Shown one piece after another: positions 2,909 to 15,346 of a DNA stretch of 15,534 nt (position 1 is the first letter of the stretch; each line of letters begins with the position of its first letter). This DNA is from Microcaldota archaeon (GTDB lineage: Archaea > Micrarchaeota > Micrarchaeia > Anstonellales > Bilamarchaeaceae), in assembly GCA_030666035.1 (NCBI GenBank), contig DAOUYQ010000002.1:1-15534 (forward strand), read 5' to 3'. The position numbers and the translations under genes are program-made. A model generated the notes under the pieces. That model searched no databases. It saw only the letters and a list, made by a program, of their open reading frames with translations, and was not told where the DNA came from.

Positions 2909-2924
2909 TTTATCGGTGAGCTTA

Positions 2925-3404
2925 ATGAAATGCCCCTATTGTATAAATGATGATACAAAAGTAGTGGATTCAAGGCAGGTAGAAGCCCAGATACGCAGGA
3001 GGCGGGAATGCGAAAAATGCGGAAAGCGCTTTACAACATTTGAGCGGGTGGAATTAGCTGAAATATACATACTAAAGAAGAATGGCTCCAGGCAGCCCTT
3101 TAATTCCGAAAAGCTCAGAACCAGCATAAGAAAAGCATGCGAGAAGCGCCCAATTTCCCTTACACAGATAGAAGAGATGGTGGACCAGATTGAGGCAAAG
3201 CTCAGGAATGAGGATTCAATTGAAATCAAGAGCTCTAAGGTGGGAAACCTGGTAATGCAGAAATTGAGGAAACTTGACCCGGTTGCATACATCCGCTTTG
3301 CATCAGTCTACAAGGACTTTGGTGACCTGGGATGCTTTGAGGAAACAATAGATAAGCTAAAGAGGAGTGGCCCAAATGGAAGAAAACAGCATATTTCAGA
3401 TTAG
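2925..3404 (+). CDS. nrdR: Transcriptional repressor NrdR
   Basis: 159 aa, the normal family length. NrdR senses ATP/dATP and represses ribonucleotide reductase genes. The N-terminal zinc ribbon has CPYC (C3, C6) and CEKCG; the basic stretch IRRRRECEKCGKRFTTFER is the family hallmark. An ATP-cone domain follows (KKNGSRQPFNSEKLRTSIRK onward) to about residue 135. I chose ATG at 2925 because NrdR proteins begin with M-x-C-P-x-C and because GGTGA sits 5 nt upstream; a GTG at 2916 in frame is less likely. The last 29 nt overlap nrdD, so translation of the two is probably coupled. NrdR is nearly universal in bacteria but patchy in archaea, so bacterial transfer at some point is plausible. Confidence 0.95.
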   Translation: MKCPYCINDDTKVVDSRQVEAQIRRRRECEKCGKRFTTFERVELAEIYILKKNGSRQPFNSEKLRTSIRKACEKRPISLTQIEEMVDQIEAKLRNEDSIEIKSSKVGNLVMQKLRKLDPVAYIRFASVYKDFGDLGCFEETIDKLKRSGPNGRKQHISD

Positions 3405-5430
3405 GAAACGTGATGGGACAGTGGTTTTATTCGACCGCAGCAGAATTCGTGATGCCATTTGGAAATCCTTCCGTGTAACCGGAGAAGGGGACAAGGACCG
3501 CGCTGAAAACCTCACCGACCAGGTAGTAAATATCCTCAATCATAAATTCAGCGAGAAACACCCATCTGTTGAGCAGATTCAGGATATTGTGGAAGAAGTC
3601 CTCATTATCAACAAGTATGTGAAAACGGCTAAAGCATACATCTTATATCGAAGCCAGCACAGCCAGCTTCGGGAGCTTGGCCACCTCATGAAGAATGTGG
3701 AAATGATTGATGGCTACCTGGAAAACCAGGACTGGAGGATAAGGGAAAATGCAAACATGGCGTATTCCCTCCAGGGGCTCAATACCCACATCTCCAGCAT
3801 CATAATTTCCCAATACTGGCTCAACAAGATATATCCAACTTCGCTTGGGGATGCCCACAGGAACGGAGACCTCCACATCCACGACCTCAACACGCTTGGT
3901 GCATACTGTGTGGGCTGGGACATCCAGGACCTTCTCCTAAATGGATTTACAGGAGTCCGTGGAAAGATAGAGAGCAAACCCCCCAAGCATTTCCGCACCG
4001 CCCTTGGCCAGATAGTTAATTACATCTACACCTTACAAGGGGAAACTGCAGGAGCCCAGGCATTCTCCAATTTTGATACCTACCTTGCCCCATTTATCCG
4101 TTATGACAATCTGGAATACAAAGAAGTAAAGCAGGCAATGCAGGAGTTTCTTTTCAACATGAACGTGCCTACAAGGGTAGGTTTCCAGACCCCATTTAGC
4201 AATATCACCATGGACCTGAATCCCCCGGAGTTCCTCAAAAACCAGCCAGTAATCATAGGCGGGAAACCCATGAAGGAAACCTATGGGGAATTCCAGAAGG
4301 AAATGGATCTTCTCAATAAAGTTTTTACTGAAGTAATGGTTGAAGGCGATGCCTCCGGAAGGCTATTTACCTTTCCAATCCCCACTTACAACATTACAAA
4401 AGATTTTGACTGGGAATCAGATACTGCAAAAGGAATTTTTGAAATGACCGCAAAATACGGAATTCCATATTTTTCAAATTTCATCAACAGCGATATGCGC
4501 CCTGATGATGCCAGGAGCATGTGCTGCAGGCTTCGCCTGGATAACCGTGAGCTCAGAAAGAGGGGCGGGGGCCTTTTTGGGGCAAACCCCCTTACTGGCT
4601 CCATTGGAGTAGTAACAATCAACCTCCCCCGCATTGGCTATATTGCAAAAGATGAAGAGCAGTATTTCCAGAAGCTTAGGGTCCTAATGGACATGGCATG
4701 CCAGAGCTTAGAATCAAAGCGGAAGGTTCTTGAGAGCTTTACAGAGCGCGGCTTATACCCGTATACCAAGTTTTACCTGCGCAACCTAAAGGAAGCAAAT
4801 GGGGAATACTGGAAGAACCATTTTGCAACAATCGGCTTAATTGGAATGAATGAATCCATAATCAATTTCCTTGGAACAGACCTGCTAAGCGAGAAGGGGA
4901 GGAAATTCGCAGAAAAAGTCCTGGATTTTATGCGTGATAAGCTTACCCAATACCAGCAGGAAACAGGGAATGTGTACAACCTTGAGGCAACACCCGGCGA
5001 AGGAACCACCTACCGGCTTGCAAGGCTGGACAAGGCCAGGTACCCGGACCTAATAGTTGCAAATGAAGAGGCATACAAAAGCAGGAGTGCTGCACCCTAT
5101 TATACAAACTCTTCCCAGCTCCATGTAGCTGCCCCAATTGATGTATTTGATGCACTTGAAATTGAAGACCCGCTCCAGACCAGGTATACCGGGGGAACAG
5201 TTTTCCATGCATTCCTTGGAGAGCGCCTGTATGACTGGAAGGTAGCAGCAAAGCTCGTAAAAACGATTGCCGAGAACTTCCGCCTGCCGTACTTTACACT
5301 TACCCCAACTTTCAGCGTATGCCCCGTACATGGATATATTCCAGGAGAGCATGAATATTGCCCCAAGTGCGATGAAGAAATTGGATATGCAGGCGCACTT
5401 CGCATGCAGGCAAAAGGGGGCGCCCAGTAA
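3376..5430 (+). CDS. nrdD: Anaerobic ribonucleoside-triphosphate reductase NrdD, lacking the glycyl-radical C-terminus
   Basis: 684 aa from ATG at 3376 (GAGGAG 8 nt upstream; a GTG at 3367 is possible). It reduces ribonucleoside triphosphates to dNTPs anaerobically. An ATP-cone allosteric domain (FQIRKRDGTVVLFDRSRIR) fills about residues 5-90; the ten-stranded barrel follows. SMCCRLRLD places C383/C384 at the finger-loop thiyl-radical cysteine. The zinc site near the end has CPVHG (C649, H652) and CPKC (C662, C665). The ORF then runs through GYAGALRMQAKGG to TAA without the RVxGY glycyl-radical motif that every active class III enzyme needs. That motif is encoded in another frame at 5445-5630. 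One extra base in the G5 run at 5416-5420 would join both parts. The start overlaps nrdR by 29 nt. Confidence 0.92.
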   Translation: MEENSIFQIRKRDGTVVLFDRSRIRDAIWKSFRVTGEGDKDRAENLTDQVVNILNHKFSEKHPSVEQIQDIVEEVLIINKYVKTAKAYILYRSQHSQLRELGHLMKNVEMIDGYLENQDWRIRENANMAYSLQGLNTHISSIIISQYWLNKIYPTSLGDAHRNGDLHIHDLNTLGAYCVGWDIQDLLLNGFTGVRGKIESKPPKHFRTALGQIVNYIYTLQGETAGAQAFSNFDTYLAPFIRYDNLEYKEVKQAMQEFLFNMNVPTRVGFQTPFSNITMDLNPPEFLKNQPVIIGGKPMKETYGEFQKEMDLLNKVFTEVMVEGDASGRLFTFPIPTYNITKDFDWESDTAKGIFEMTAKYGIPYFSNFINSDMRPDDARSMCCRLRLDNRELRKRGGGLFGANPLTGSIGVVTINLPRIGYIAKDEEQYFQKLRVLMDMACQSLESKRKVLESFTERGLYPYTKFYLRNLKEANGEYWKNHFATIGLIGMNESIINFLGTDLLSEKGRKFAEKVLDFMRDKLTQYQQETGNVYNLEATPGEGTTYRLARLDKARYPDLIVANEEAYKSRSAAPYYTNSSQLHVAAPIDVFDALEIEDPLQTRYTGGTVFHAFLGERLYDWKVAAKLVKTIAENFRLPYFTLTPTFSVCPVHGYIPGEHEYCPKCDEEIGYAGALRMQAKGGAQ

Positions 5431-5444
5431 AGGATGTGATGAAG

Positions 5445-5630
5445 ATGGATGAAGAAAGGACAAAATCTCTTGAAAAGAAAAGGGTTCGGTGTGAAGTTTA
5501 TTCCCGTGTAGTGGGGTACATTCGCCCGGTTTCCCAGTGGAATGAGGGAAAGCAGGAGGAATTCGCCGAGAGGCACATGTTCTCTTCCGATTCTCCAGAA
5601 CCCAGAGGTAAGGATAAAAATGAGCCTTGA
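5445..5630 (+). CDS. nrdD: Separate glycyl-radical domain of NrdD (split or frameshifted)
   Basis: 61 aa from ATG at 5445 (GTG 5436 and ATG 5439 are in-frame alternatives). It contains CEVYSRVVGYIRPVSQWNEG, the conserved C-terminal loop of archaeal and Thermotoga-type NrdD; G24 in RVVGY is the expected radical site. The preceding helix (DEERTKSLEKKR) looks like the linker normally found between the zinc site and this loop. The preceding ORF's TAA ends 14 nt upstream of this ATG. GGATGTGAT at 5432-5440 resembles the Shine-Dalgarno consensus GGAGGTGAT in eight of nine positions, so independent translation is possible. The last 11 nt overlap nrdG. It may be a genuine second subunit that assembles with the large piece, or the C-terminus of nrdD after a one-base deletion. 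The tail after residue 45 (SSDSPEPRGKDKNEP) is polar and weakly conserved. Confidence 0.8.
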   Translation: MDEERTKSLEKKRVRCEVYSRVVGYIRPVSQWNEGKQEEFAERHMFSSDSPEPRGKDKNEP

Positions 5631-6330
5631 TTTTGCCCAGATACAGAAAACAAGCCTGATAGATTTTCCGGGCGAAGTTGCATCCACACTCTTTACGCTT
5701 GGGTGCAATTTCCGCTGCCCTTTCTGCCACAATCGTTCACTAGTGCTTCCTGATGAATATCCCCCCCAGCGCATAACCCCTGAGCAGGCACTTGCCGAAC
5801 TATCCAAAAGGAAAAAGTATGTCCAGGCAGTATGCATTACTGGCGGGGAGCCCACAATCCATCCCGAGCTTACCTGGTTTATCTCTTCTTTGAAAAATGA
5901 AGGCCTCAAAGTAAAACTGGATACAAACGGCTCAAATTCCAAAATGCTCTCTGAACTTTATCAAAAAGAATTGCTGGATTATGTTGCAATGGACATAAAG
6001 TCCTCCCTTGAAGATTATGATGAATCCTCAGGAGTGCAAAGTGACATTGCAAAAATCAAGGAAAGCGTTCAGCTCATCCGCTCAAGTGGCATTCCCTACG
6101 AATTCCGCACAACTGTTGTTCCGGGCCTCCATGATCTGGAAAAAATAGAAGCAATAGGCAAATGGCTAGAAGGCGCGGACCGTTATGTAATCCAATCCTT
6201 TTCACCTGAAGGGGGAACGCTGGACAAATCCTTTGAAACAAAAGCTCCCTTTAAGGACAAGAATCTCCAGGCATTTGTAAATACTGCAAAACCTTATTTT
6301 AAGGAAGTTATGCTCAGGGAGTATTACTAA
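5620..6330 (+). CDS. nrdG: Anaerobic ribonucleotide reductase activating protein NrdG (radical SAM)
   Basis: 236 aa from ATG at 5620; the longer frame back to 5542 lies inside the previous ORF and lacks family resemblance. NrdG uses a 4Fe-4S cluster and S-adenosylmethionine to generate the glycyl radical on NrdD. CNFRCPFCHN (C29, C33, C36) is the CxxxCxxC cluster motif, and TGGEP at 74-78 is the SAM-binding GGE motif. The N-terminal KTSLIDFPGEVASTLFTLGC is typical of the longer archaeal/Thermotoga NrdG rather than the ~155-aa enterobacterial form. GAGGT lies ~10 nt upstream. It overlaps the glycyl-radical ORF by 11 nt, completing the nrdR-nrdD-nrdG operon. It ends 8 nt from the convergent transporter gene. 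Confidence 0.93.
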   Translation: MSLDFAQIQKTSLIDFPGEVASTLFTLGCNFRCPFCHNRSLVLPDEYPPQRITPEQALAELSKRKKYVQAVCITGGEPTIHPELTWFISSLKNEGLKVKLDTNGSNSKMLSELYQKELLDYVAMDIKSSLEDYDESSGVQSDIAKIKESVQLIRSSGIPYEFRTTVVPGLHDLEKIEAIGKWLEGADRYVIQSFSPEGGTLDKSFETKAPFKDKNLQAFVNTAKPYFKEVMLREYY

Positions 6331-8946: not shown

Positions 8947-10098
8947 ATGAAAAAAGCAGAATTCCTACTTACGCCTGTGGTTGGAAAGTATTTCGTAGGG
9001 CGCGAAGACGTGGTAAAAGAGCTTGGCAAAGAGCTTGGCAACCCGAAATCCAGAATAGGTTTTTGTCTGTATGGGAGAAGGAGGGTTGGAAAAACTTCTG
9101 TGCTTATGGAGGTAAAAGACCATCTTGCAAATAAAAGGAATGTTGTTGTGGTCTACCTCTCATTATACGATCTAGCTGACTTTTCAATAGAAACACTCGG
9201 AGAAGAGATAATAAACGCAGTTATAGACGCTTATCAGGAGAAAAACCTTTTGCCTTTCACCATAAAGATAAGGAAACTGCTGGAAGCGCCCATAGAAGTT
9301 GTAACTGAGCTCCTCTCAAATACCAAAATCGAAGCATCAGTGCTTGAACACATAAAAATTCTTTTGGAGTACAAGCAAGGCAGGAGAAATTACACAAATT
9401 ATATCCGAGACGTATTCAATACTGGAGAAGTTCTCGGGAAAGCAACCTCGACTAAATGCGTTATCATTCTGGATGAATTTCCAGAGATGACAAAAGTTGA
9501 GAATGGCATGCAGCTTGTTAAGATTTTGAGAACACAATATGAAAAGCAGGAAAAAACTGCACTTGTAATTTCAGGCTCTATAAAGAAAACCCTGGAAACG
9601 GTGGCCTTGTCTGAAGCCTCGCCTTTTTACAAACAGCTTGTCCCCAAGCACATAATGCCGTTTAGCAGGGAAGAAGTTGAGAAATTCCTCAGTTTATACC
9701 TGGGAAAAACCAAAACTGATGAAGTTGAAAAGCTTTATCAGCTTACTGGAGGCTTGCCGTTTTACCTGCAATTCATTGGTCGCTCCACAGGCTATGCAGG
9801 AAGCATAGACAAGGCGATAAATCAATTCCTTGAGCAGGAAGGAGACTTGTTTTTCAAAGAAGAAATAGAAAAGCTTTCTGAAAAAGAAAAAATAATCGTA
9901 ATCGGATTATTCCAGGGAAAGAAAACTCTCACTGAACTTGCCAATGATATAAATGAAGCCCCGACAACAGTAGGCAGGTACCTGCCTGAATTAATCGGCA
10001 AAGAAATTGTTGTGAAGGAATCAAGGGGGAAGTATGAACTTTTAGATAAAATGTTTGGATTGTGGCTCAAGAGAACTTATTTACATGATGTAAAATAA
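8947..10098 (+). CDS. Archaeal ATPase (ATPase_2/STAND-like) with C-terminal winged helix
   Basis: 383 aa. A typical family opening, YFVGREDVVKEL, precedes the Walker A motif GRRRVGKTS (residues 43-51). Walker B is CVIILDEFPEM with D176-E177, and LVISGS is the sensor-like strand. GGLPFYLQFIG belongs to the helical lid. Residues ~310-375 look like a winged helix (KTLTELANDINEAPTTVGRYLPEL). Unlike the second ATPase in this window it has no DUF234 nuclease-like tail. The family is often expanded and mobile in archaeal genomes and its cellular role is mostly unknown; NTP-driven switching is expected from the STAND-type fold. The gene is AT-richer than its neighbours and sits alone between two palindrome-rich gaps, which suggests acquisition. 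Confidence 0.9.
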   Translation: MKKAEFLLTPVVGKYFVGREDVVKELGKELGNPKSRIGFCLYGRRRVGKTSVLMEVKDHLANKRNVVVVYLSLYDLADFSIETLGEEIINAVIDAYQEKNLLPFTIKIRKLLEAPIEVVTELLSNTKIEASVLEHIKILLEYKQGRRNYTNYIRDVFNTGEVLGKATSTKCVIILDEFPEMTKVENGMQLVKILRTQYEKQEKTALVISGSIKKTLETVALSEASPFYKQLVPKHIMPFSREEVEKFLSLYLGKTKTDEVEKLYQLTGGLPFYLQFIGRSTGYAGSIDKAINQFLEQEGDLFFKEEIEKLSEKEKIIVIGLFQGKKTLTELANDINEAPTTVGRYLPELIGKEIVVKESRGKYELLDKMFGLWLKRTYLHDVK

Positions 10099-12578: not shown

Positions 12579-13874
12579 ATGGCTAAAATTGATTGGTATG
12601 ACAAGTTTGTGGATTTGGGATACAAGCCTTCAAAAGACGAGATAGTTGTTCTATTTTACTTTGAGCCTGCTGCAGGTATGAGCAAAAAAGAAGCAATTGG
12701 AAGAATCGCATCAGAGAGTTCCACTGGAACCTGGACAACGCTTACAAAGCTTCCTCCAAGAATGAAGAAGCTCCAGGCAACCGCGTTCAAAATTGATGGA
12801 AATTATGTAAAAATTGCATATCCCTCTGGTCTCTGGGAAAATGGAAACGCATGCCAGCTCCTTTCTGGAATTGCAGGAAATATATTCGGGATGAAGGGCG
12901 TAAAAAACCTTAGGTTAATTGATGCAACCCTTCCCCAGAACTACATAAAATACTTCAAGGGCCCGCAGTATGGAATGCAGGGAATCCGCAAAATGATGCG
13001 GGTTAAATCGCGCCCACTCACCGGAGCCGTAGTGAAACCCAAAATCGGCTTTACTGCGAGGGAGCATGCAGCAATTGGCTATGAAACCTGGATGGGCGGA
13101 TTCGACTTTGTAAAAGATGATGAGAACCTCACCTCACTCAAATTCAACCGCTTTGATGAGCGTGTCAAAATAATGACTCGCCTTAGGGACAAAGCAGAGA
13201 AAGAAACCGGAGAGGCCAAGTCCGCATTCTTCAACATCACTGCAGAGACCGAAGAAATGAAAAGGCGCGCCAAAATTGTAGCGGATTATGGCTGGAACTA
13301 CGTAATGATTGATGTGGTGGTTACCGGAACTGCTGCGGTCCAGACTTTAAGGGATTACTGTGGGGATTTAGGTTTAGCAATCCACGCACACCGTGCAATG
13401 CACGCTTCATTTACCCGAAATGCAAAGCATGGAATAAGCATGCAGTTCCTTGCAAAAATGATGCGCATGATAGGGGTTAACCAAATCCATTCCGGAACCG
13501 GGGTAGGAAAACTGGTAGGTTCAAAAGAAGAGCTTCTCTCCATTGCAGATACTCTAAGGGAAAAGAAAGTAAAGCCACGAAAACATATGCTCCTGGAGCA
13601 GGATTGGGGCTCAATTAAAACTGCATTTCCTGCATCTTCAGGGGGGCTGCACCCCGGCCTGGTTCCTGAAGTTATGAAGATTTATGGAAATGAGTTTATT
13701 CTGCTGGTTTCCGGGGGAATTCATGGCCACCCCGATGGGACCCGTGCAGGTGCAGCTGCAACAATGCAGGCAATAGATGCAGTGATGGCAGGGGAAACTC
13801 TCACAGAAAAAGCAAAGAAAAATATAGAATTAAAGAGGGCGCTTGGGAAGTGGGGGAAGTATAAGCCCAGGTAA
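12579..13874 (+). CDS. rbcL: Ribulose-1,5-bisphosphate carboxylase, archaeal form III
   Basis: 431 aa, shorter than plant-type large subunits (~475) and typical of archaeal form III. Catalytic positions are present: E46 and TGTWTT (49-54), N101, KPK (K153, K155), GGFDFVKDDEN with carbamylated-Lys position K179 and metal ligands D181 and E182, HAHRAMHA (H271, R272, H275), loop 6 SGTGVGKL with K311, and SGGIH (378-382). It should carboxylate RuBP to two 3-phosphoglycerates. In archaea with form III the known role is AMP/nucleoside salvage with AMP phosphorylase and ribose-1,5-bisphosphate isomerase; neither partner lies in this window. Loop 6 continues GKLVG where most RuBisCOs have GKLEG (V313 for Glu). 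No small subunit is present, as expected. Confidence 0.94.
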   Translation: MAKIDWYDKFVDLGYKPSKDEIVVLFYFEPAAGMSKKEAIGRIASESSTGTWTTLTKLPPRMKKLQATAFKIDGNYVKIAYPSGLWENGNACQLLSGIAGNIFGMKGVKNLRLIDATLPQNYIKYFKGPQYGMQGIRKMMRVKSRPLTGAVVKPKIGFTAREHAAIGYETWMGGFDFVKDDENLTSLKFNRFDERVKIMTRLRDKAEKETGEAKSAFFNITAETEEMKRRAKIVADYGWNYVMIDVVVTGTAAVQTLRDYCGDLGLAIHAHRAMHASFTRNAKHGISMQFLAKMMRMIGVNQIHSGTGVGKLVGSKEELLSIADTLREKKVKPRKHMLLEQDWGSIKTAFPASSGGLHPGLVPEVMKIYGNEFILLVSGGIHGHPDGTRAGAAATMQAIDAVMAGETLTEKAKKNIELKRALGKWGKYKPR

Positions 13875-13960: not shown

Positions 13961-15346
13961 TTATTTTCTGCAGACTGCCTTTTCAATTTTCCCCAGGTCG
14001 AAAAACATAATCTTCTTTCCTTTTGCAAATTCCCCAACATTCTTTTCAAACCCACTCTTAGCAAAGAATGCAAAAGATTCCTTTCTTTTCCCCTGCCTCC
14101 ATTTGACCATTGCAGATTTTTCAAACAAAGCCAAAATATCCGAAACAGAAATTTTCTTTTTCCTCCATTTGCATTCTCCAAAAAGTATCCTGTCCTTTTG
14201 CTCATCAAGCGCAACAATATCTATTTCCGTATCTTTGGACCACCACCCACCAATTCTTGGGCAACCATCCCCCATCGCCCTCAAAAGCGCACTCCTGCAA
14301 ATTTCTTCAAAGATGTATCTTCCAATATAATAATTATTATAGTCGGCGAGTACAGATTCCACAACTCCCTTGGCATTCTCTTCTATGGCCCCCTCATTAT
14401 AGTAATAGTATTTGAGCCAGAACCTCATGTAATTGTCTTTTATCCGATACACAAAATTCTTGGATTTGGCAACTTCAGTTATGGGATATTCTTTCTCAAT
14501 AAGCCTCAATTGCATGAGTACCCGGAGATACTTATTTATATTGCCCATATCCACCTGGCTCTTTGAACTGATTTCAGCTGTTTTGGTTGCACCCTCTAAG
14601 ATTGCGAGCAGGATTGCAAAGTATGTATGGATTTCCCTCAATTCTTCACGCAGGAGAATTTCTGCTTCCATGCTGAGAATATTGGATTTGTTGAAAACAG
14701 TACCCAATAAGTTTTCCTTAAAGCTCAATTTATCCGAAAACTCCTGTATATAATATGGAATCCCCCCCGTTACTCCGTATACTTTTATTATGTCAACAAA
14801 AGAATATGATGGAAGGAACTTCCTTAATGCTGAGATTGGAAGCTGGTGCAGGTGAATCTGGCCCGTTCTCCTTCCATGCAGGGGGCTTTTTGCACCCATA
14901 ACTTCATTCTCCATTACAGACATGGCTGAGCCAGAGAGTATCAGAAAAACATTTTTTTCACTTAGAATCTCATCCCATATCACCTGGAATTCAGAGAGCA
15001 CTGATTTATCCGCTTCGACCCAGTAAGTGAATTCATCAATTACGAGTATTGTTTTTTCTTCCGGGCCTAATTTCTCCGCCAATTCCCTAAATACTGACTC
15101 TAAGTTCCCCCTGGATTTGATAAATATCCCCAATTCTTCTGCTATGCGCCCCACCAATCTTTCAATTTCCAGTGATATTTTCTGCTTTTTTGCCAGGAAG
15201 TAGAAATATTTTTTCCCTTTGGCAAATTCTTTAATTAACGAGGTTTTCCCTATTCTCCTCCTTCCAAAAATAATAAAGAATTCTGCCCGTTTAGACTGGT
15301 AAGCTTTATCCAGGGCAGACAGTTCTGGTTTTCTATCTACAAACAT
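13961..15346 (-). CDS. Archaeal ATPase (ATPase_2) with DUF234-type nuclease-fold tail
   Basis: 461 aa. It starts MFVDRKPELSALDKAY, the usual family opening, followed by Walker A GRRRIGKTS (28-36), Walker B ILVIDEFTYW (D104-E105) and LILSGS (136-141). GVTGGIPYYIQEF marks the lid; a winged helix spans about 235-300. The C-terminal domain (~310-455) resembles DUF234, and EIDIVAL (D376) with FGECKW (E391, K393) forms a D...ExK pattern of PD-(D/E)xK nucleases, so DNA cleavage or binding is possible. ATG at 15346 is preceded by a TATA element and tandem repeats. It is convergent with RuBisCO. Members are scattered in archaea, often in variable regions; role unknown, with defence or mobile-element control often suspected. 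Confidence 0.9.
   Translation of the reverse strand: MFVDRKPELSALDKAYQSKRAEFFIIFGRRRIGKTSLIKEFAKGKKYFYFLAKKQKISLEIERLVGRIAEELGIFIKSRGNLESVFRELAEKLGPEEKTILVIDEFTYWVEADKSVLSEFQVIWDEILSEKNVFLILSGSAMSVMENEVMGAKSPLHGRRTGQIHLHQLPISALRKFLPSYSFVDIIKVYGVTGGIPYYIQEFSDKLSFKENLLGTVFNKSNILSMEAEILLREELREIHTYFAILLAILEGATKTAEISSKSQVDMGNINKYLRVLMQLRLIEKEYPITEVAKSKNFVYRIKDNYMRFWLKYYYYNEGAIEENAKGVVESVLADYNNYYIGRYIFEEICRSALLRAMGDGCPRIGGWWSKDTEIDIVALDEQKDRILFGECKWRKKKISVSDILALFEKSAMVKWRQGKRKESFAFFAKSGFEKNVGEFAKGKKIMFFDLGKIEKAVCRK

Follow-up and report, generated by a model that had tools for sequence, protein, structure and literature searches.

A candidate two-polypeptide class III ribonucleotide reductase with a separately encoded glycyl-radical domain in a Microcaldota archaeon and other anaerobes

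Introduction

The class III ribonucleotide reductase NrdD is an oxygen-sensitive enzyme that supplies building blocks for DNA. The literature searched, so far as its available text goes, treats it as a single polypeptide that carries the radical glycine in its C-terminal domain. The radical site of T. maritima NrdD, for example, is Gly621 according to the accessible part of PMC4493059. The available text of PMC11226230 reports that the glycyl-radical domain (GRD) of the one-piece P. copri NrdD is mobile, and disordered with dATP; we take this mobility to make loss of the covalent link plausible. One-piece enzymes (PF13597; TIGR02487; PRK08270-type) have in common with the locus studied here the ATP cone, the catalytic domain, the zinc-site motif, NrdG, the GRD sequence and the predicted fold, but differ in that our locus encodes the GRD in an ORF of its own, which has a separate start.

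Small free-standing GRDs acting in trans on a larger radical enzyme are known for pyruvate formate-lyase (PFL), for which YfiD/GrcA and T4 Y06I serve as spare parts (PMC8683613, in the portion available). The same partial text states that oxygen damage to glycyl-radical enzymes strikes the glycyl radical and cleaves the protein, that validation extends only to the two PFL spare parts, and that further glycyl-radical enzymes may have spare parts as well. The enzyme repaired by these proteins has, as described there, a GRD of its own, whereas the body encoded at our locus never has one. YfiD/GrcA also belongs to PF01228, whereas our small ORF matches PF13597 only.

Class II reductases are B12-dependent. 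Among them, NrdJa/NrdJb resembles our locus as one reductase encoded by two adjacent ORFs (PMC4009431 and PMC9669993; see also PMC4520616), but it is class II, and PF02867 was not found in the assembly analysed here. Reductase genes in several ORFs also occur in phages (split nrdD/nrdA of Aeh1, phiAS4 and the Jug phages; PMC3653736, PMC12363816), but these splits are, in the accessible parts of both papers, mostly tied to introns, inteins or homing endonucleases, with that of phiAS4 unexplained. The Jug preprint remarks, in the text available, on a lack of splicing evidence between the 230- and 91-aa nrdD fragments (PMC12363816); these fragments may represent the same phenomenon as the split NrdD reported below. 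The literature searched, which was mostly without subscription papers and included available parts of PMC2795772 and PMC4390871, yielded no account of an NrdD that normally has its GRD encoded separately. PMC9531940, according to its accessible text, dropped sequences of fewer than 400 residues before its tree, and such small ORFs would thus be lost.

Results

We analysed a window of 15,534 nucleotides on contig DAOUYQ010000002.1 of a Microcaldota archaeon (GCA_030666035.1), whose genome is an 81.75% complete draft of 949,737 bases in 170 contigs. All genes of the nrd cluster are on the forward strand. The cluster starts with nrdR (2916..3404; TIGR00244, E 4.6e-57), encoding the transcriptional regulator of ribonucleotide reductase genes, which overlaps nrdD by 29 nt. 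The nrdD ORF (3376..5430, from ATG 3376 to the stop at 5428-5430) encodes a 684-aa body with an ATP cone (PF03477), a catalytic domain, the motif MCCR at residue 382, and the zinc-site motif CPVHGYIPGEHEYCPKC at its end, beginning at residue 649 (residues 649-665; 5320..5370, positioned by sequence). Motifs of this type bind zinc in NrdD, and this one presumably does so too. Profile matches to the body are strong (PF13597, E 1.1e-184; TIGR02487, 539.2 bits against a cut-off of 326.35; NF006126, 1047 bits), but the PF13597 match covers positions 1-531 of 562 and the radical glycine is lacking. An earlier note on this DNA had described exactly such an ORF, with ATP cone, active-site cysteines and zinc site, that ends before the radical glycine.

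The missing profile positions, 532-562, are matched by a small ORF in another frame immediately downstream, grd (5445..5630; E 6.6e-10 for the 64-aa form). It encodes a stand-alone GRD of 61 aa from ATG 5445, with a core conserved in the GRD alignment and a pN/pS of 0.13 in the genus; alternative in-frame starts are GTG 5436, which would give 64 aa, and ATG 5439. We prefer ATG 5445 as the predicted start, as the starts of relatives align there by eye. The sequence RVVGYIRP, placed by the earlier note on a separate 61-aa ORF in another frame, is indeed encoded there and includes the predicted radical glycine, Gly24 of the 61-aa form (codon GGG, 5514..5516). In the profile match, RVVGY corresponds to RIVGY of T. 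maritima NrdD, where the aligned stretch reads YMRIVGYLVP. The Shine-Dalgarno-like sequence noted before this ORF, AAGGATGTGATG (5430..5441, with GGATGTGAT at 5432-5440), is present as a moderate match of 5 nt. The 11-nt overlap with nrdG also holds: grd ends at 5630 and nrdG (5620..6330), encoding a radical-SAM activase of 236 aa (TIGR02495, NrdG2, E 1.5e-57), starts at ATG 5620.

Profile searches of the assembly returned a single NrdD match and a single GRD match. An NRDD domain is present and an NrdG partner adjoins and overlaps grd, but the radical glycine is not at the C-terminus of the same polypeptide. Because the glycine can be supplied in trans only, we class the gene pair, and not the body alone, as class III NrdD. 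The pair also departs from YfiD/GrcA, which serves a parent enzyme already equipped with a GRD: in this genome grd gave the sole GRD match, and the body has none. A GRD serving another radical enzyme was considered and rejected, since none of the six genus genomes examined matched PF01228 (PFL-type Gly_radical), which did match 3 of 14 control genomes, E. coli included. Elsewhere in the window we observed a gene for a type III RuBisCO large chain (12579-13874; TIGR03326) and two ORFs that by eye resemble archaeal ATPases (8947-10098 and 13961-15346).

The nrdD gene is split in all six genus genomes examined, that of the window included, and the split rows of the genus form one clade (SH-aLRT 98). 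The distance from body stop to small-ORF start is 8 nt in the window (computed from ATG 5439) and 5, 1, -8, 24 and 28 nt in the others, and all three relative frames occur. In one relative (L006/L035) the two parts share one frame and are separated by TAA, TAA and TGA; in another (G004) the small ORF runs off the contig end. Relatives with a continuous nrdD, by which the earlier note proposed to judge the split, were found in other families of the same order and none within the genus. The genus genomes are all drafts (82-95% complete), in which a one-piece NrdD or another reductase may have escaped detection. Four one-piece relatives (L008-L011) have a common linker of 34 residues from the zinc motif to the GRD, against 4, 6 or 9 residues in other measured one-piece NrdD. 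Such a linker could be the scar of a re-fusion, a question that our unrooted tree cannot decide.

We considered whether programmed frameshifting, transcript slippage or stop read-through might fuse both parts, and find this very unlikely. The frames of body and grd differ, and an A4G5 run (5412-5420) lies just before the stop of the window's body, but the run occurs in none of the five genus relatives. No motif is common to the six genus junctions (by eye), the parts of L035 are separated by three in-frame stops, and, with three frame relations among six genomes, there is no conserved site with a fixed frame relation as in a recoded gene. Across 76 split loci, the spacing seen most often (16 loci) is one in which the small ORF has a start of its own and overlaps the body by 4 nt. 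Small-ORF starts are preceded by a Shine-Dalgarno match of at least 6 nt in 38 of 76 cases, against 38 of 1163 control windows in bodies, with the best start chosen in both sets and with control windows lacking a start codon, and L043, which has no start candidate, dropped. The match is at most 3 nt in 17 of the 76 loci, many of them in candidate-phyla bacteria. Finally, the gap between body and grd is 726-835 nt in seven loci of the Halanaerobiales clade, which include three Halanaerobium named to species, one Halanaerobium sp. strain and Orenia metallireducens. By eye, the order is body, NrdG-like ORF (CxxxCxxC), grd in three Halanaerobiales loci (L063 of Orenia, L086 and L095 of Halanaerobium), and recoding cannot join parts that have another gene between them. 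The slippage that the earlier note had left open is rejected for the clade on these grounds.

It is likewise highly improbable that the NrdD body is decaying or has taken on a new function, with the small ORF a remnant or the gene of a protein that does something else. Truncation does remove the essential glycine, and one genus member (G003) does carry a class I/II reductase (PF02867). However, this domain is absent in the other five genus genomes, the window's among them, and the small ORF is under purifying selection (mean pN/pS 0.133, pS 0.720, pN 0.096; 15 pairs from six genomes over a 47-codon stretch). The window GRD retains the residues invariant in a 32-row GRD alignment (A1), and the six genus bodies keep the many invariant columns of the body alignment A2, as they must, being rows of it.

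Barely credible is the main rival of the earlier note, in which a one-piece nrdD was cut when one G of six at 5416-5420 was lost, whether through a sequencing error or a recent mutation: the G5 run exists, the downstream frame is open upstream of its ATG (84 aa stop to stop) and one-piece NrdD occurs in other families of the order, but we reject base loss as the cause of the split because the five genus relatives are split too, at differing junctions and distances and in all three frames, and the whole genus clade is split.

Judged from the sequences, the class III reductase of two polypeptides that the earlier note thought unusual is supported, the gene being split in every genus genome examined and both slippage and base loss being rejected. 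What the note overlooked is how frequent the arrangement is. We searched the 32-row GRD alignment at E 1e-6 against five phylum samples (301 + 379 + 119 + 350 + 327 = 1,476 genomes), which are not neutral, as their centres were picked for being split, and obtained 271 GRD matches in 248 genomes, 140 in stop-to-stop frames shorter than 200 aa and 131 in longer frames. Short and long frames, tallied by eye from tables, number 35 and 14 in the window's phylum, 44 and 35 in the phylum of the WS6 genome, 3 and 33 in that of the Orenia genome, 4 and 5 in that of the Pelolinea genome (a lower bound, with 20 candidates scored in each of some genomes) and 54 and 44 in that of the Nanoarchaeota genome (17 and 5 of them weak, E 1e-10 to 1e-6). 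At least one short frame is a false split, that of G271 (195 aa), where the contig ends within a one-piece gene. The same two-part layout in many other anaerobic archaea and bacteria argues that it is not a sequencing error.

We classed 132 distinct short GRD ORFs in loci L113-L276, drawn mostly from the surveys and covering part of the short matches. An NrdD body lies upstream within 500 nt in 116 cases and at 811-1335 nt in 4; 11 ORFs have no body in the fetched stretch and 1 is the end of a one-piece gene cut by its contig. One of these 120 bodies (G601) has its own GRD, so that 119 of the 132 short GRDs are downstream of a separate, GRD-less body.

A body-only tree was built by a quick method from 141 rows and 398 columns (173 rows less 32 near-duplicates); it is unrooted, with 54 of 138 inner branches weak and three rows flagged long. 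With 77 of its rows split and 64 one-piece, the tree requires 14 state changes, of which starred branches force at least 8, and none of 500 label shuffles came as low as 14 (mean 46.7). Of the split rows, 64 fall together with 10 one-piece rows in a single 74-row group (support 88, not starred) that mixes DPANN archaea, candidate-phyla bacteria and Halanaerobiales. By this pattern the split or one-piece state has changed more than once, whether it was gained, lost or transferred; several such changes are needed.

Several variants of the arrangement were observed. A split and a one-piece NrdD stand in tandem on one contig of G273 (L204). In two genomes of the Pelolinea-phylum sample (G826 and G1007; L285 and L287), NrdD bodies lie in frames of 1119 and 1152 aa with a large insert, possibly an intein, and the GRD and NrdG-like ORFs are by eye located elsewhere. 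The Nanoarchaeota-phylum sample includes a divergent NrdD lineage with its own divergent small GRDs (L197, L198-L202, L216, L271-L276), with up to three GRD matches and one body per genome. Another GRD type, TRVMGYHRPVS, is likewise encoded apart from its body in the WS6-phylum sample (L234-L241).

Some genomes carry more GRDs than bodies. Two from the Nanoarchaeota-phylum sample, G1363 and G1189, have one NrdD body and two GRD matches each, one GRD being beside the body. The second GRD of G1363 (L205, 1383-1514, 44 aa) comes immediately after a FUR-family gene and before rubrerythrin genes; that of G1189 (L207, 2741-2872, 44 aa) lies between a DUF1858 gene and genes for glutaredoxin, AhpC/TSA and ferritin. 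G1299 and G1315 have three GRD matches and G1300 two, with one body each, and no oxidative-stress genes were found among the scanned neighbours of their fetched second and third GRDs. In G601 (L203, 759-3413), the ORF after a one-piece NrdD encodes, by eye, 94 aa with cysteine pairs and a closely similar GRD, and an NrdG-like ORF comes next. As this short GRD adjoins a one-piece NrdD, it is a possible spare part and not a split.

GRDs also occur on viral contigs. Among the best 80 of 508 confirmed viral relatives, 69 are lone short GRD ORFs, 9 are one-piece and 2 have a separate body; no NrdD body was found in the examined flanks of the 69, which reached 3 kb or 10 kb at most (L289-L368, L369-L447). 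The lone GRDs comprise 57 distinct ORF peptides, 8 have less than 2 kb upstream and 37 have at least 5 kb on both sides. Their NrdD may lie beyond the flanks or be too divergent for the profile. Lone viral cores show a mean pS of 0.68 and pN of 0.15 (130 pairs sharing at least 70% nucleotide identity, among 52 distinct cores). Of four contigs inspected, L389 carries terminase and portal genes, L400 primase/helicase and endolysin matches, and L399 a primase and a helicase; the two proteins scanned on L372 gave no PHROG match. A tblastn search with the 61-aa ORF matched 2 of 50,697 annotated phage records, ANMV-1 virus (annotated as reductase) and MT835493 (no annotation).

Discussion

Given the analyses presented above, we propose that the cluster nrdR-nrdD(body)-grd-nrdG very probably encodes a working two-polypeptide class III reductase, in which a GRD with its own start would dock non-covalently and be activated by NrdG at Gly24. 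This reading from sequence draws on the anatomy of the locus, its conservation in the genus, purifying selection, ribosome-site signals, recurrence in other lineages and the finding of no other reductase in five of six genus genomes. In this scheme the ATP cone, catalytic barrel and zinc-site motif would come from the 684-aa body. Translation of the 61-aa GRD would begin at its own start codon, probably by coupling to termination at the stop upstream, and the GRD would take, with no covalent link, the position of the C-terminal domain in one-piece NrdD, its RVVGY loop entering the barrel. NrdG would turn Gly24 of the small subunit into the glycyl radical, after which the reaction would run as in other NrdD. 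Oxygen damage would hit only the replaceable small subunit.

A structural model agrees with this proposal. We modelled L035 read through its stops (759 residues; mean pLDDT 82.6, pTM 0.77), with the GRD blocks at 691-740 scoring 78-91 and the linker block at 681-690 scoring 53. VIA-align placed the model (residues 97-740) on P. copri NrdD 8p2s_B (residues 85-735) with an rmsd of 2.9 Å over 562 residues, a superposition in which the modelled GRD would sit where one-piece enzymes have it. Foldseek TMq is 0.65 for 8p2s_B and 0.50-0.68 for class III chains, and alignments to S. thermophilus chains have an rmsd above 10 Å. Because the read-through linker is forced and A2 contains one-piece rows, the model serves as a consistency check only and not as independent evidence of docking.

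The closer parallel to YfiD lies in the extra NrdD-type GRDs of other genomes. The extra cellular and lone viral GRDs are possibly spare parts, YfiD-like but for NrdD. We raise more tentatively, as a proposal that could well prove wrong, that in many anaerobic lineages the GRD is an exchangeable radical subunit, separate, disposable and replaceable after oxygen cleavage, that some cells keep extra copies, in two cases beside FUR, rubrerythrin, peroxiredoxin or ferritin genes, and that the lone NrdD-type GRDs of many viruses could dock with the host reductase and revive it.

The small ORF may be missed by gene callers or lost to length filters, and the NrdD of candidate-phyla bacteria and DPANN archaea may thus wrongly look defective. 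A separate glycine subunit bears on the access of NrdG to the glycine, on the path of the radical loop into the barrel and on repair after oxygen damage, and the existence of Halanaerobium and Orenia isolates makes a two-part NrdD directly testable.
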